A stretch of 64,000 nucleotides of DNA from Geothrix oryzae (GTDB lineage: Bacteria > Acidobacteriota > Holophagae > Holophagales > Holophagaceae): assembly GCF_030295385.1 (NCBI RefSeq), contig NZ_AP027079.1, positions 186,001 through 250,000 on the forward strand. Direction: 5' to 3'. Below, one piece after another: positions 13,493 to 19,588 of the stretch. Each line of letters begins with the position of its first letter. Position 1 is the stretch's first letter. The notes under the pieces were generated by a model. That model had not been told where the DNA came from. It saw nothing but the letters and a program-made list of their open reading frames with translations, and did no database searches. Made by a program: the position numbers and the translations under genes.

Positions 13493-14449
13493 ATGAAGCG
13501 GATCCAAGCGGGATTGCTGTCGGTCCTCGGTCTGGTGACGGCCGCCACTCCGGCCCGAGCCTGCGGCGCCTGCGGCTGCACGCTGAACTCGGACTGGGCA
13601 AGCCAGGGCTACGCGGTGAGGCCCGGCTTCCGCTTCGACCTCCGCTACGACTACTTCAACCAGGACCAGCTGCGCAGGGGCACCCGCTCCGTAGACCGGG
13701 CCGCCTTCGAGATCCCCAATGAACAGGAAGTCCAGGAGAAGACGCTCAACCGCAACCTGACGGCGACTCTGGACTACAGCCCCAGCCCCGACTGGGGCGT
13801 GACGGTGCTGATCCCCGCCTTCAACCGCTATCACGCGACCCTGGCCGAAGGGGATGTGGATCCTTCCATGTCCCAGACCAGCGGCCTGGGCGATGTCCGG
13901 GTGCTGGGCCGCTACCAGGGCTTTTCGGAAGCGCGCTCCTTCGGCGTGCAGATGGGCCTGAAGCTGGCCACGGGCCGGTTTCACCAGCCGTTCCAGGCGG
14001 GGGCGCAGGCGGGCCAGCCGCTGGACCGGGGCCTCCAGCTGGGGACGGGCACGACGGATCTGCTTGTCGGGGCCTATGCCTTCGGCAGTCTGGCTCCGGA
14101 GTGGGGCTGCTTCGGCCAGGTGCTCTTCCAGAAGCCTCTGGGCGAGCGGGAGGGCTTCAAGCCCGGCGACGGCGTCAATGCCAACGCGGGCGTGCGCTAC
14201 ACGGGGTTTGCCGGCCTCACGCCGCACCTGCAGCTGAACCTGCGGGCCGAGGGACGGGAATCGGGTTCCCAGGCCGATGTGGAGAACAGTGGCGCCACCC
14301 TCCTCTACCTCAGCCCGGGCCTCACGGTGGCAGTCACCCGCACCCTGCAGGTCTACGCCTTCGCCCAGGTCCCGCTCCATCAGCGGGTGACCGGCCTGCA
14401 GATCGAGCCGCGCTCCAGCGTGTCGCTGGGCCTGCACTGGAGCTTCTAG
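13493..14449 (+). CDS. Outer-membrane beta-barrel protein with Cys-rich mature N-terminus
   Basis: A 318-residue exported protein. The signal peptide is clear (MKRIQAGLLSVLGLVTAATPARA), and the mature protein starts with CGACGC, an unusual three-cysteine cluster. The remainder alternates polar and aromatic residues in strand-like segments (FRFDLRYDYF, WGVTVLIPAFNRY, GVQMGLKLATGRF) and ends in ...GLHWSF, the terminal aromatic expected by the BAM machinery. It resembles the loosely defined phenol-degradation MetA-like/transporter barrel group. ATG 13493 follows CCAGGAGGAACC. Its stop codon overlaps the stop of the converging sensor gene. Function is unknown; metal binding through the Cys cluster is a guess. 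Confidence 0.75.
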   Translation: MKRIQAGLLSVLGLVTAATPARACGACGCTLNSDWASQGYAVRPGFRFDLRYDYFNQDQLRRGTRSVDRAAFEIPNEQEVQEKTLNRNLTATLDYSPSPDWGVTVLIPAFNRYHATLAEGDVDPSMSQTSGLGDVRVLGRYQGFSEARSFGVQMGLKLATGRFHQPFQAGAQAGQPLDRGLQLGTGTTDLLVGAYAFGSLAPEWGCFGQVLFQKPLGEREGFKPGDGVNANAGVRYTGFAGLTPHLQLNLRAEGRESGSQADVENSGATLLYLSPGLTVAVTRTLQVYAFAQVPLHQRVTGLQIEPRSSVSLGLHWSF

Positions 14450-16968
14450 CCCTGGGGAGGGGCCGTCAGGTGGAAGAACTCCCGGTCCGCCTTGAGCATG
14501 TGCAGGGCCACGACATCCTGGGCCAGGAACTGGAAGAGCCTGCCGCTGGAGAGCGTTCCAGCCTGGAAGGCCTGCTGCAGGTCGAGGGCCTTGCCGATGA
14601 GCTCGGCGTGCTTCTGCCTGTGTTCCTGTAGCCCGCTGAAGCCGAGGTCCGCCAGGATGGCCTCCTCGTCCTGGAAGTGCTGGGCCACTTCGGACAGGAG
14701 CTTCGTGACCAGCGCCGCGAGATCCCCGTCGTCCCGCCCTGACAGGACCGCATCAAGCAGGTCGTTGGAGAGGCGGAACAGCCGTTCGTGCTGGGCATCG
14801 ATCAAGGGGTTCCCGGAGCGGAAGGAGGCACTCCAGGCTAGTTTGAGGAAGGTGCCTTCCGGGTGTTCGCCGCGCGGCTCGATGCCGCTCTGCAGGGGAT
14901 CGGCCTCCACCCGGTTCCGCCCCGCCTGCTTGGCCCGGTACAGGGCATGGTCGACGCGTTCCAGCCAGGATTCGCGGGAAGCGTCGGGGAGGTACTCCGC
15001 CACGCCGAAGCTGGCCGTCACCGGCCCGATCCCTTCGATGGCGCACCCGGCGAGGCTCTCGCGGATGCGTTCGGCCAGGGCCTTCGCGTTCGCGAGTCCC
15101 GTATTGGGCATGAGGACGATGAACTCCTCGCCACCCCAGCGGGTGAGGGAGTCGGAAAGCCGGATCACCGCGCGCACCTGATCGGCGACCTCCATGAGGA
15201 CGCGGTCCCCCTCGGGGTGGCCGTAGGTGTCGTTGATCCGTTTGAAGTGATCGATGTCCAGCATCAGCATCGACAGGGGATGACCATACCGGAGGGAGCG
15301 GTGCATCTCTCCCTCGATGGCGGCGTCGAAGTGCCGGCGGTTCCAGGCATGGGTGAGGAGATCCGTGCTGGCCGCCTGTTCAAGGGTTTCGAGGTTGCGG
15401 CGCAGCTGTTCTTCCGCCCGCCGCCTCGCCGTGATGTTCCGGCTCACGCCGAGGACCCGGGTCGGGCGGCCCTCGGCGTCTCCGTGGAGCGTCGTCACGA
15501 CCTCCGTGGGAACCAGGTGCCCGTCCTTGTGGGGCTGGTCCACCTCCACCACCCGGGGAGGGAGGGTGGCTCCCGCGTGCCATTCAGCCAGGGACTCGAT
15601 CAGGATCTTCTGGACCCGGGCGGCCGATTCCGGGGTCAGGGCCTCGGCCACCGGCATGGCCAGGATCTCCTCGGGGGTGTAGCCCCGCAGCTGGACCACG
15701 GACGGGCTGACATAGGTGAACCTCCCGCTGGGGAGATCCATGGTCCAGATGACATCGGCGGAATGCTCCGCGATGAAACGGAACTGCCGCTCGCTCTCCC
15801 GGAGTCCGCCGCTCATCTGGGCCTGCGCCCGGATCGCCCGCGCGAGGCGCCGGTTCATCCAGAGGAAGACGAGGACCGCCGCGCCGAGGACCAGGCCGAT
15901 CGGGAGGGCGAGGGTCAGCATGAGCCTCAGGTTCCGTCGGGCCTGACGATCGCCGGCGCCGGGATCATAGAGGAAGCCCTCGAGGGGGAAGCCGGTGGGC
16001 AGGAGGTCCAGCTGCGCGTAGGCATCCGCCATGCGCTGCCAGCGGTCGGGATGCATGTAGCCCAGCTCGACCAGGTCCCGCTGCAACAGGGGAGCCATCT
16101 GGCTGGCCTCGTAGAGGAGGTGGTCCCGGCCGTGCCGCCCGCCGTAGCGGGCGAGGATCAGGTCCACCACCTCCTCCGGATGCTGCATGGCATAGGCCCA
16201 GCCCCGGAGGCTCGCCTCGCGGAAGGCCTTCACCCGGGCGGGATGGGCGCGGATTTCCTCCTCCGTGGTGAAGAGGTTGTCGCCGTAGAAGTCGAGGCCG
16301 ATGGCGCGGGGCGTGAAGGTCAGGTAGCTGAAGCCGGCCTGATCCAGGAAGTAGGGTTCATCCGTGCTGTAGGCGCTGATGGCATCGACTTCCCCGTTGA
16401 GCAGGGCCGACGGGTCGAAGCGATGCTCCTGGAGGCTGAGGGATGACACCGGCACGCCCTCTTTCCGCAGGAAGGCGAGGAGCTCATCGGAGTGGCGGTC
16501 GATCATGATGCGCCGGCCCGCCAGATCGTGGACCGAATGGATTCCGGCCCCCGAACGGGCGAGGAGGGCGAGGGGGGAATGCTGGTAGATGACGGCCAGG
16601 GCCACCACGGGCAGGCCCTGCTGCCGGGCGAGGAGGAGGGCACTGTTGCTGACGCCGTACTGGGCCCGCCCCGCCACGACCTCCCGGGCCGGGTCCGTCG
16701 AGGGATCGGCTTCGAGCATGGTGACCTCGAGCCCGGCCTCCCGGTAGAACCCCTTCTCCTGCGCCGCGTAGTACCCGGCGAATTGGAACTGGTGCCGCCA
16801 TTTGAGCTGAAGGGTGATCGATTCGGGAGGCGGAGCGGCCATCAAGATGCAGCCGAGCCCGGCGCCCAGGACGAGCCAGCGCAGCTTGGCGGCGATCCTC
16901 CCGAGACCGCTCGCCGCCTCGGGCTGGCGGGGGGCCGGGATGGGGGTCGCGGCGGGTGGTGAGGTCAT
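14446..16968 (-). CDS. NMT1/THI5-like sensor diguanylate cyclase with PAS and C-terminal hemerythrin domain
   Basis: An 840-residue membrane protein. In order: N-terminal hydrophobic segment (~29-44); periplasmic NMT1/THI5-like substrate-binding domain (~48-320, KWRHQFQFAGYYAAQEKGFY); second membrane segment (~340-362); PAS domain (~395-510); GGDEF domain with intact RWGGEEF and an RLSD inhibitory site five residues before it; and a hemerythrin domain (~705-835) with IDAQHERLFRL, HFQDEEAIL, HRQKHAEL and HMLKAD ligands. It likely makes c-di-GMP in response to a pyrimidine-like ligand, with oxygen or NO sensed at the di-iron site. ATG 16968 is preferred to an in-frame TTG at 16992; neither has a strong RBS. 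Confidence 0.88.
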   Translation of the reverse strand: MTSPPAATPIPAPRQPEAASGLGRIAAKLRWLVLGAGLGCILMAAPPPESITLQLKWRHQFQFAGYYAAQEKGFYREAGLEVTMLEADPSTDPAREVVAGRAQYGVSNSALLLARQQGLPVVALAVIYQHSPLALLARSGAGIHSVHDLAGRRIMIDRHSDELLAFLRKEGVPVSSLSLQEHRFDPSALLNGEVDAISAYSTDEPYFLDQAGFSYLTFTPRAIGLDFYGDNLFTTEEEIRAHPARVKAFREASLRGWAYAMQHPEEVVDLILARYGGRHGRDHLLYEASQMAPLLQRDLVELGYMHPDRWQRMADAYAQLDLLPTGFPLEGFLYDPGAGDRQARRNLRLMLTLALPIGLVLGAAVLVFLWMNRRLARAIRAQAQMSGGLRESERQFRFIAEHSADVIWTMDLPSGRFTYVSPSVVQLRGYTPEEILAMPVAEALTPESAARVQKILIESLAEWHAGATLPPRVVEVDQPHKDGHLVPTEVVTTLHGDAEGRPTRVLGVSRNITARRRAEEQLRRNLETLEQAASTDLLTHAWNRRHFDAAIEGEMHRSLRYGHPLSMLMLDIDHFKRINDTYGHPEGDRVLMEVADQVRAVIRLSDSLTRWGGEEFIVLMPNTGLANAKALAERIRESLAGCAIEGIGPVTASFGVAEYLPDASRESWLERVDHALYRAKQAGRNRVEADPLQSGIEPRGEHPEGTFLKLAWSASFRSGNPLIDAQHERLFRLSNDLLDAVLSGRDDGDLAALVTKLLSEVAQHFQDEEAILADLGFSGLQEHRQKHAELIGKALDLQQAFQAGTLSSGRLFQFLAQDVVALHMLKADREFFHLTAPPQG

Positions 16969-17130
16969 GGTGGATCCGCGATGGGGTGCCAAACCTTGGC
17001 AGAGAAGACACTGGAGGTGATCGATAGTAGAACACCCATAGATCGGTTATTCCCCGGCTTGCCTCAAGTTCCGGTGCCTTCCGGGGGGCGGAGCAGGGGA
17101 ACCCGGGGGTGGAGGGCTGCGGCTTTCCTT

Positions 17131-17149
17131 GTAGAATCAAGGGTTCTAC
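17131..17149 (+). promoter_or_regulatory. Inverted repeat containing a TAGAAT -10-like box before leuS
   Basis: GTAGAA and TTCTAC form 6-base arms around a 7-base centre, 13 bases before the leuS ATG. TAGAAT (17132-17137) could be the -10 hexamer, which would give a very short leader; the repeat could equally be an operator or small hairpin. No -35 box is obvious. Confidence 0.35.
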
Positions 17150-17161
17150 CGGAGTTCTCCC

Positions 17162-19588
17162 ATGCCGTTTCAGCCCCTGACCCAGGAACCCGAGATCCAG
17201 CGCCGCTGGCTCGAGTCGGGCGCCTTCCGCGCCAAGCGGTCCGGGGAGCTGCTGCCGGGCTCCAAGACCTTCTACATGCTGGTGATGCTGCCCTACCCGT
17301 CGGGTCGCATCCACATGGGCCATGTCCGCAACTACACGCTGGGCGATGTGACGGCCCGCTTCCGCCGCATGAAGGGCTACGAGGTCATGCATCCCCTCGG
17401 CTGGGACAGCTTCGGCCTGCCCGCCGAGAACGCCGCCATCAAGCACGGCATCCACCCCGCCATCTGGACCCGCAAGAACATCGAGGAGATGAAGGGGCAG
17501 ATCCAGAAGATGGGCATCAGCTACGACTGGGACCGCGAGATCGCCAGCTTCCAGGACGACTACTACCGCTGGAACCAGTGGCTCTTCCTCCAGATGTGGG
17601 AGCAGGGCGATGTGTTCCGCGCCATGCGCACCGTGAACTGGTGCGAGGCCCTGGGCACCGTGCTGGCCAACGAGCAGGTGGTGGACGGCAAGGATGAGCG
17701 CACGGGGCACCCTGTCACCCAGAAGCCCCTGGAGCAGTACTTCTTCAAGACGACGAAGTACGCGGACGAGCTGCTCGACTGTCTGGACGGGCTGGACTGG
17801 CCTGACAATGTGAAGACGATGCAGCGCCACTGGATCGGAAAATCCGAGGGCGCGCGCCTCGCCTTCGACCTCCAGACCGGTGGCCAGGTCGAGGTCTTCA
17901 CGACCCGGCTCGACACGCTCTTCGGCGTGACCTTCATGGCCCTGAGCACCGAGCACCCCGTCATCGAGCAGGCCGCCGAGGCGGACGCAGCGCTGAAGGC
18001 CTTCTGCGACCAGGTGGCCGCCGTGAGCCGAGAGGAGCGCCTCACCAGCGATGTGAAGCTGGGCCACCGCACCGCCCTGTCCGTGATCCATCCCTTCACG
18101 GGCGAGAAGGTGCCCGTCTTCGCTGCCAACTATGTGCTCATGGACTACGGCACCGGCGCGGTCATGGGGGTGCCCGCCCACGATGAGCGGGACCACGAGT
18201 TCGCCGAAAAATACGGCCTGCCCTTCCCCAAGGTCATCGAATCGGAAAGCGAGTGGGATCTGGGCACGCTGGTGAACAGCGGCGAGTTCACCGGGATGAA
18301 GAGCGAAGAGGCCGTCGCGGCCATGATCGCCAAGCTCGGCACCCGGGCCGAAAAGACGACGACCTACAAGCTCAAGGACTGGGGCCTTTCCCGCCAGCGC
18401 TACTGGGGCACGCCCATCCCGACGGTGCATTGCCCGGATTGCGGCGTGGTGCCCGAGAAGGCCGAGAACCTGCCCGTGCGCCTGCCTGAGGATGTGGCCT
18501 TCACGGGCCATGGCCCCTCCCCCCTCACCACCTCTTCCTCCTTCTTGAACACGAAGTGTCCAAGCTGCGGCCAGCCCGCCAAGCGCGAAACCGACACCAT
18601 GGACACCTTCGTGGACAGCAGCTGGTACTGGCTGCGCTACCTGGATCCCAAGAACACCGAGCTGCCCTTCGCCAAGGCCGAGAGCGACGCCTGGATGCCC
18701 GTGGATCTCTATGTGGGAGGCATCGAGCACGCCACCATGCACCTCATCTACGCCCGCTTCTTCTACAAGGTGCTGCGCGACCTGGGCCTGGCCAGCGGCC
18801 CGGAACCTTTCCAGAAGCTCATCTGCCAGGGCATGGTGCTGAAGGACGGCTCGAAGATGAGCAAGTCCAAGGGCAACATCGTGGATCCCGACGAGGTGAT
18901 CTCCCGGTACGGGGCGGACGCCCTGCGCCTCTTCATGATCTTCGCCGCGCCCATCGAGAAGGAGATCGACTGGACCGGCTTCGAGGGCATCGAGGGCGCC
19001 AGCCGCTTCCTCAAGCGCGTCACGCGCATGGTGGAGGATCATGCCGTCACGGCCGATCCACTGCCCGCCAAGGACGCCCTCAGCGCCGAGGAGAAGGCCC
19101 TCCTCCTCAAGCTCAACCAGACCATCGCCCGCCTCACGGACGACCTGGAGCGCCGCTACCAGTTCAACACCGTGGTCTCGGGCCTGATGGAGCTGTCCAA
19201 TGCCCTGGGCGACCTGCCCGCGGCTGTGCCCCACCGCGGCGCCGTGATGCAGCACGCCCTGGATGCCTTCGTGCGCCTGATGTCGCCGGTGGCCCCCCAC
19301 CTGGCCGAGCAGCTCTGGAGCCAGCTCGGGAAGGCGGGCCTCTGCATGCAGGCCGCCTGGCCCGAGGCCGACGCCCAGTACCTGGAGGCCGACGAGGTGC
19401 TGGTGGTGGTGCAGGTGAACGGCAAGGTGCGGGGCCGCATCACCGTGTCCGCCGGTGCCACCGAGGAGCAGCGCCGGGCGGCGGCCCTGGTCTGCGCCGA
19501 GGCCCAGCCCCACCTGGCGGGCAAGGAGATCGTGAAAGTGGTGCTGCCCCCGGGCGGCAAACTCGTGAGCATCGTGGTGAAAGGCTGA
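17162..19588 (+). CDS. leuS: Leucyl-tRNA synthetase
   Basis: An 808-residue class I synthetase that charges tRNA-Leu. The HIGH-type motif is HMGH in YPSGRIHMGHVRNYTLGD and the KMSKS motif is intact in DGSKMSKSKGN. The editing domain has the T-rich stretch FTTRLDTLFGVTFM and the MGVPAHDERD motif. A zinc-binding insert is visible (CPDCGVVPEKAENLPV and CPSCGQPAKRE). The length is slightly below the E. coli enzyme (860) but normal for this type. The ATG fits the N-terminus expected for LeuRS (MPFQPLTQEPEIQRRW). It starts a tightly packed plus-strand run with cysK (4-base gap) and pyrE. Confidence 0.97.
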   Translation: MPFQPLTQEPEIQRRWLESGAFRAKRSGELLPGSKTFYMLVMLPYPSGRIHMGHVRNYTLGDVTARFRRMKGYEVMHPLGWDSFGLPAENAAIKHGIHPAIWTRKNIEEMKGQIQKMGISYDWDREIASFQDDYYRWNQWLFLQMWEQGDVFRAMRTVNWCEALGTVLANEQVVDGKDERTGHPVTQKPLEQYFFKTTKYADELLDCLDGLDWPDNVKTMQRHWIGKSEGARLAFDLQTGGQVEVFTTRLDTLFGVTFMALSTEHPVIEQAAEADAALKAFCDQVAAVSREERLTSDVKLGHRTALSVIHPFTGEKVPVFAANYVLMDYGTGAVMGVPAHDERDHEFAEKYGLPFPKVIESESEWDLGTLVNSGEFTGMKSEEAVAAMIAKLGTRAEKTTTYKLKDWGLSRQRYWGTPIPTVHCPDCGVVPEKAENLPVRLPEDVAFTGHGPSPLTTSSSFLNTKCPSCGQPAKRETDTMDTFVDSSWYWLRYLDPKNTELPFAKAESDAWMPVDLYVGGIEHATMHLIYARFFYKVLRDLGLASGPEPFQKLICQGMVLKDGSKMSKSKGNIVDPDEVISRYGADALRLFMIFAAPIEKEIDWTGFEGIEGASRFLKRVTRMVEDHAVTADPLPAKDALSAEEKALLLKLNQTIARLTDDLERRYQFNTVVSGLMELSNALGDLPAAVPHRGAVMQHALDAFVRLMSPVAPHLAEQLWSQLGKAGLCMQAAWPEADAQYLEADEVLVVVQVNGKVRGRITVSAGATEEQRRAAALVCAEAQPHLAGKEIVKVVLPPGGKLVSIVVKG

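Follow-up and report, generated by a model that had tools for sequence, protein, structure and literature searches.

Which signals would set the activity of a cyclic di-GMP (c-di-GMP) synthase that carries a sensor domain at either end? The question is raised by a minus-strand gene of Geothrix oryzae, located in a stretch of 64,000 nucleotides (positions 186,001 to 250,000 of contig NZ_AP027079.1; hereafter the window), the product of which is predicted to join an NMT1/THI5-like domain, a PAS domain, a GGDEF domain and a C-terminal bacteriohemerythrin (Hr) domain. We read this protein as a probable diguanylate cyclase that is anchored in the membrane and receives two independent inputs, namely oxygen or redox state at a cytoplasmic di-iron centre and a ligand in the periplasm, and assign this reading a probability of about 0.68. 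Both predicted inputs are well supported by conservation.

The reading frame of 840 amino acids starts with ATG at 16968 and stops at 14446; an alternative TTG at 16992 would give 848 amino acids. Each of the four domains, as named for 14446-16968 by the sequence-only reading, exceeded its curated Pfam cut-off (E-values for the 848-aa form: NMT1 1.2e-48, GGDEF 7.7e-45, Hemerythrin 1.6e-9 and PAS 1e-8). Since 840 codons were combined with four family matches at low E-values, chance is excluded and the predicted gene is taken to be real. Two hydrophobic segments (near residues 25-45 and 346-375) flank the NMT1 domain and, therefore, NMT1 should be periplasmic and the remainder of the protein cytoplasmic. 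The proposal of one input on each side of the membrane was upheld by the domain calls and the flanking segments, at the level of a predicted topology.

Active-site residues were compared in an alignment of seven homologous sequences (A1; numbering as in the 840-aa form). R603 and D606 of the I-site, the residues of GGEEF and all seven di-iron ligands were invariant, which bore out the earlier claims of an intact cyclase and a complete C-terminal bacteriohemerythrin. The predicted cyclase keeps the GG[DE]EF motif (GGEEF 612-616) as well as D571, N579 and D580, which we take to be metal and substrate residues of the GGDEF domain. The iron ligands H727, H764, E768, H783, H787, H823 and D828 (five His, one Glu and one Asp) follow the canonical order and are in register with those of the solved bacteriohemerythrin 4xpx. 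The Hr domain passed NCBIfam hemeryth_dom TIGR02481 (84.4 bits against a cut-off of 51.75, E 6.4e-24) and narrowly missed the narrower bact_hemeryth NF033749 (76.3 bits against 84). In a wider set of 112 rows of Hr-carrying relatives, which includes one row that lacks GGDEF and, for some genomes, second copies, all seven ligands were retained in 111 rows; GGEEF or GGDEF was retained in 106 of 111 rows and RxxD in 110 of 111. The genome-scan patterns used for picking loci cover H727, H764 and E768, and the ligands independent of these patterns were retained in 112/112 (H783, H787 and D828) or 111/112 rows (H823). The GGDEF-to-Hr spacing was 13-23 residues in all 110 rows in which both domains were measured. 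The putative di-iron centre may sense O2, nitric oxide (NO) or redox state.

The sequence-only reading held that an Hr placed after GGDEF is unusual. This did not stand, and the order was rejected as a peculiarity of the present protein. When contigs were scanned by Hr patterns and 80 of 149 relatives of the region comprising the GGDEF end and Hr were kept, 79 of the 80, from Acidobacteriota, Pseudomonadota and Thermodesulfobacteriota, had GGDEF followed by a C-terminal Hr, although the query held the last part of GGDEF and favoured GGDEF-Hr proteins in the ranking. C-terminal placement was also the commoner one among chimeric hemerythrins (53/84; PMC2556348), whereas for GGDEF fusions specifically N-terminal Hr is among the frequent forms of a later survey (22 sequences; PMC4919030). 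C-terminal-Hr GGDEF proteins from Holophagaceae, Methylococcaceae, Geobacteraceae, Desulfobulbaceae, Paramagnetospirillum and others share the order and spacing of the two domains with the present protein, but mostly have different N-terminal sensors. The N-terminal domains found on the 80 relatives were Tll0287-like (16), 7TMR-DISM_7TM (5), SBP_bac_3 (4), NMT1 (2) and CHASE (2). Alignment A3 gives the impression that other periplasmic sensors (Tll0287-like in 16/80, SBP_bac_3 in 4/80) are joined to the same GGDEF-Hr tail. A further arrangement was seen in proteins of the same genus and family (L020:1495-2652(-), L021, L022 and L057-L060), in which GGDEF is preceded by half an Hr (helices one and two, carrying about three of the seven ligands) and followed by a full Hr. 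On dimerisation, two such half-Hr domains could form another four-helix site.

The predicted periplasmic domain scored well over its family cut-off (PF09084, 166.3 bits against 20.5). Its closest solved chains were the thiamin-bound binding protein 4nmy, ThiY (3ix1) and THI5. Across 55 NMT1 domains from the searched genomes more than 50 columns were conserved at ≥90%, including W57, Q62, G65, Y67, Q129, D226 and Y228, and this conservation suggests a ligand common to the 55 domains. The NMT1 sensor domains thus share a conserved signature, and we know of no ligand for them. NMT1 is used here as the name of a fold family only and leaves a pyrimidine-type ligand unproven. NMT1/THI5-like annotations have been called misleading, with caution advised on inferring thiamin metabolism from them, in a paper on the xanthine riboswitch (PMC7373994). 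The shared Pfam family and the match of THI5 chains at 1.6e-6 would also fit a THI5-like pyrimidine synthase instead of a binding domain. However, His66 belongs to the active site of THI5 (PMC10848271) and falls opposite an alignment gap in the NMT1 domain, NMT1 sits between two hydrophobic segments, and the NMT1 domains of relatives are joined to signalling outputs. A THI5-type enzyme was rejected on the missing His66, and the synthase explanation is nearly refuted. According to a review, SBP_bac_3 alone of the periplasmic-binding-protein clan had been studied in c-di-GMP sensing (PMC8846402). Our literature search found no work combining NMT1 with GGDEF, with or without THI5, and a single match for THI5-like with c-di-GMP, which concerned a riboswitch.

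How the two inputs would reach the cyclase can be proposed by analogy. The cytoplasmic Hr di-iron centre would set cyclase activity by its oxygen or redox state, and the reduced form would probably be the more active one, as in Bhr-DGC (VC1216) of Vibrio cholerae. That protein likewise holds bacteriohemerythrin and GGDEF in one chain, and it serves as the model for redox-dependent c-di-GMP synthesis: its diferrous form works at 0.77 per min and is thus about ten times more active than the diferric form, at 0.073 per min (PMC9388753). In Bhr-DGC, however, the Hr is N-terminal, and the available text on it describes no periplasmic NMT1 or PAS domain. Because its Hr is C-terminal to GGDEF, the present protein is not filed as Bhr-DGC but only as one that may work like it. 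By this analogy we expect cyclase activity to rise as oxygen falls, but the sign is a guess at about even odds, since the Hr stands after GGDEF here, unlike in Bhr-DGC. On the periplasmic side, the NMT1 clamp would bind its ligand and pass the signal through the second transmembrane helix to PAS and then to the helix before GGDEF, a route that is also presumed where other cyclases carry a periplasmic-binding-protein domain. RmcA of Pseudomonas aeruginosa also carries a domain of this clan on a c-di-GMP protein, but there it is an SBP_bac_3 domain, which senses L-arginine, and no Hr is described for RmcA in the text available (PMC8846402). DcrH of Desulfovibrio vulgaris, a membrane receptor, has its Hr in the cytoplasm at the C-terminus, after the output domain (PMC9388753, PMC2556348); unlike the present protein, its output is a chemotaxis (MCP) domain and not a cyclase.

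Two points weigh against this proposal. The literature, as far as its text was available, held no tested C-terminal Hr after GGDEF, so that both coupling and sign are extrapolated. Structure modelling was uninformative on domain contacts (pLDDT 60 for the whole protein, a poor model, and 47.9 for the GGDEF-Hr part alone); Foldseek with the whole-protein model returned NMT1 and LOV/PAS-GGDEF neighbours, as expected, and their TM-scores were low. The Hr could instead bind or consume O2, NO or iron locally, or serve dimerisation or localisation, leaving NMT1 and PAS alone to set activity. Oxygen storage or detoxification has been proposed for bacterial hemerythrins (PMC3770913), and the own genome of the protein has 13 Hr matches. 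Yet the pairing of cyclase with Hr is kept across phyla with near-constant spacing and complete ligands, and it survives the natural loss of NMT1 and PAS beside leuS; we therefore consider a non-regulatory Hr unlikely. The converse, that NMT1 is decaying or decorative and the Hr provides the sole live input, gains from the loss of NMT1 at the same site in two sister genomes (G033 and G018). It is hard to reconcile with the NMT1 score and the conserved columns given above and with a combination of NMT1 and GGDEF-Hr that likely arose twice, and seems quite improbable to us. The reading with two inputs, one on each side of the membrane, is accordingly the one we prefer.

We determined how common the combination is. 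A family search matched 55 of 77 genomes at 1e-60, and the full-length NMT1-PAS-GGDEF-Hr architecture, a search for which had been proposed along with the sequence-only reading, was present in six of the 77 (the own genome, G020, G017, G011, G009 and G063), the five proteins from other genomes being checked by Pfam. The phylum-wide search and the searches of three other groups scored two candidates per genome and could miss second-rank proteins. Phylum-wide, 32/396 genomes matched, and the two matches outside the family cover only NMT1, or NMT1 and PAS. In the three other groups (369, 395 and 385 genomes), 14, 17 and 7 genomes matched at 1e-75, and at two candidates per genome none of the 1,149 genomes gave a match spanning NMT1 to Hr. 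NMT1 is joined to GGDEF in other bacteria as well (NMT1-(PAS)-GGDEF proteins at L150, L158, L179 and others): 17 of 37 NMT1 frames had GGDEF but none of the 37 had an Hr tail, with nine of the frames truncated where the locus ended. In the two of these nine that were extended, the last 330 residues resemble EAL and not Hr. Both halves are common in bacteria, and the rarity lies only in their combination.

The gene stands at a site marked by leuS, which is found in 40 of 47 genomes; 30 loci were compared, 28 of them with at least 1,300 upstream bases. The cyclase gene or a shortened form of it lay beside leuS in seven of these 28. An NMT1-bearing gene was present in the own genome, G020, G017, G011 and G009. 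In G033 only residues 354-836 were matched, NMT1 being gone and PAS-GGDEF-Hr kept, and in G018 only residues 519-835, with NMT1 and PAS gone and GGDEF-Hr kept. In 12 of the remaining 21 loci, no cyclase matched next to leuS, and the 318-aa gene (see table) or an M20 gene, which lies beyond the cyclase gene in the own genome, was at most 1.5 kb away from leuS; a thirteenth locus matched the 318-aa protein at only 36%. The predicted cyclase-Hr core thus outlives the N-terminal sensor. The GGDEF-Hr tail would be a stable core and the N-terminal sensor exchangeable, because G033 and G018 keep GGDEF-Hr and GGDEF-Hr pairs occur with many N-terminal domains.

A GGDEF-Hr tree with 106 rows placed the NMT1 proteins of Geothrix in one starred clade of 15, together with the half-Hr forms and both shortened forms. 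The GGDEF-Hr part of the G063 protein (L016) fell in a starred group of six with Burkholderiaceae, Paramagnetospirillum, Propionivibrio and a gammaproteobacterial row, and holding L016 with the Geothrix clade was rejected by the approximately unbiased (AU) test, run on 38 rows selected from the 106 (p 0.0002). Since L016 groups with proteobacterial rows and the AU test rejects the Geothrix placement, the combination of NMT1 with GGDEF-Hr was likely, though not certainly, assembled twice, and a single origin of all NMT1-GGDEF-Hr proteins is not favoured. Against two assemblies stand the long branch of L016, the naming of its group after the tree had been seen, and the label count of the tree, which needs only one change when ungrouped rows are left out. 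In a tree of 20 NMT1 domains the Hr-bearing proteins were not one group (3 changes), which does not force more than one origin. We suggest only tentatively, at less than even odds, that one chain integrates periplasmic ligand and di-iron redox state, that the halves were joined at least twice in Holophagaceae since their conjunction is useful, and that relatives carry natural deletion forms in which the inputs are stripped stepwise.

The cyclase gene is probably transcribed alone, because it is convergent with the 318-aa gene, whose end overlaps it by 4 bases, and divergent from leuS. No promoter or terminator match was found in 16900-17250 and no Rfam match in 14000-17600. The 318-aa protein has a signal-like start and a Cys-rich N-terminus, and its gene adjoins the cyclase gene or leuS in many relatives. 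Coordinates are collected in the table.

Table. Features of the cyclase locus in the window (residues as in the 840-aa form)
Feature	Coordinates	Strand	Basis
NMT1-TM-PAS-GGDEF-hemerythrin gene, 840 aa	14446..16968	-	ORF, Pfam, NCBIfam, homologue alignment
First hydrophobic segment, about residues 25-45 (signal peptide or signal anchor)	16834..16896	-	hydropathy scan
NMT1/THI5-like predicted periplasmic ligand-binding domain, residues 60-266	16171..16791	-	PF09084 1.2e-48
Second transmembrane (TM) segment, about residues 347-373	15850..15930	-	hydropathy up to 2.57
PAS domain, residues 395-510	15439..15786	-	PF00989 1e-8; TIGR00229 2.9e-19
GGDEF diguanylate cyclase domain, residues 533-686	14911..15372	-	PF00990 7.7e-45
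I-site RxxD (RLSD), residues 603-606	15151..15162	-	R603, D606 invariant in A1
GGEEF active-site motif, residues 612-616	15121..15135	-	invariant in A1
C-terminal bacteriohemerythrin domain, residues 711-833	14470..14838	-	TIGR02481 6.4e-24
leuS, divergent neighbour, marks the conserved site	17162..19588	+	neighbour comparison
Convergent 318-aa gene, no Pfam match, marks the other side of the site	13493..14449	+	

The own genome, a single contig of 3.27 Mb, gave 11 GGDEF, 13 hemerythrin and 8 PilZ matches (7 over cut-off), and a c-di-GMP network therefore exists in it. It also encodes a second GGDEF-Hr protein, without NMT1 or PAS (L142:1042-2196(+)), and a DUF438-hemerythrin-PAS_10 protein (L144:627-1946(-)), the Hr and PAS_10 of which recall PG_0686 of Porphyromonas gingivalis (PMC10101095). 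A 927-aa protein at G000:C1 (L141:880-3663, minus strand) joins an N-terminal hemerythrin to an iron-sulfur/flavin reductase (DHODB_Fe-S_bind, Fer4_20, Pyr_redox_2).

The literature text available to us did not describe a cyclase controlled by a hemerythrin at its C-terminus, yet the arrangement is widespread and its ligands are nearly always complete. At a single chromosomal site Geothrix offers a natural series of NMT1-PAS-GGDEF-Hr, PAS-GGDEF-Hr and GGDEF-Hr forms, from which one can measure what each input contributes.
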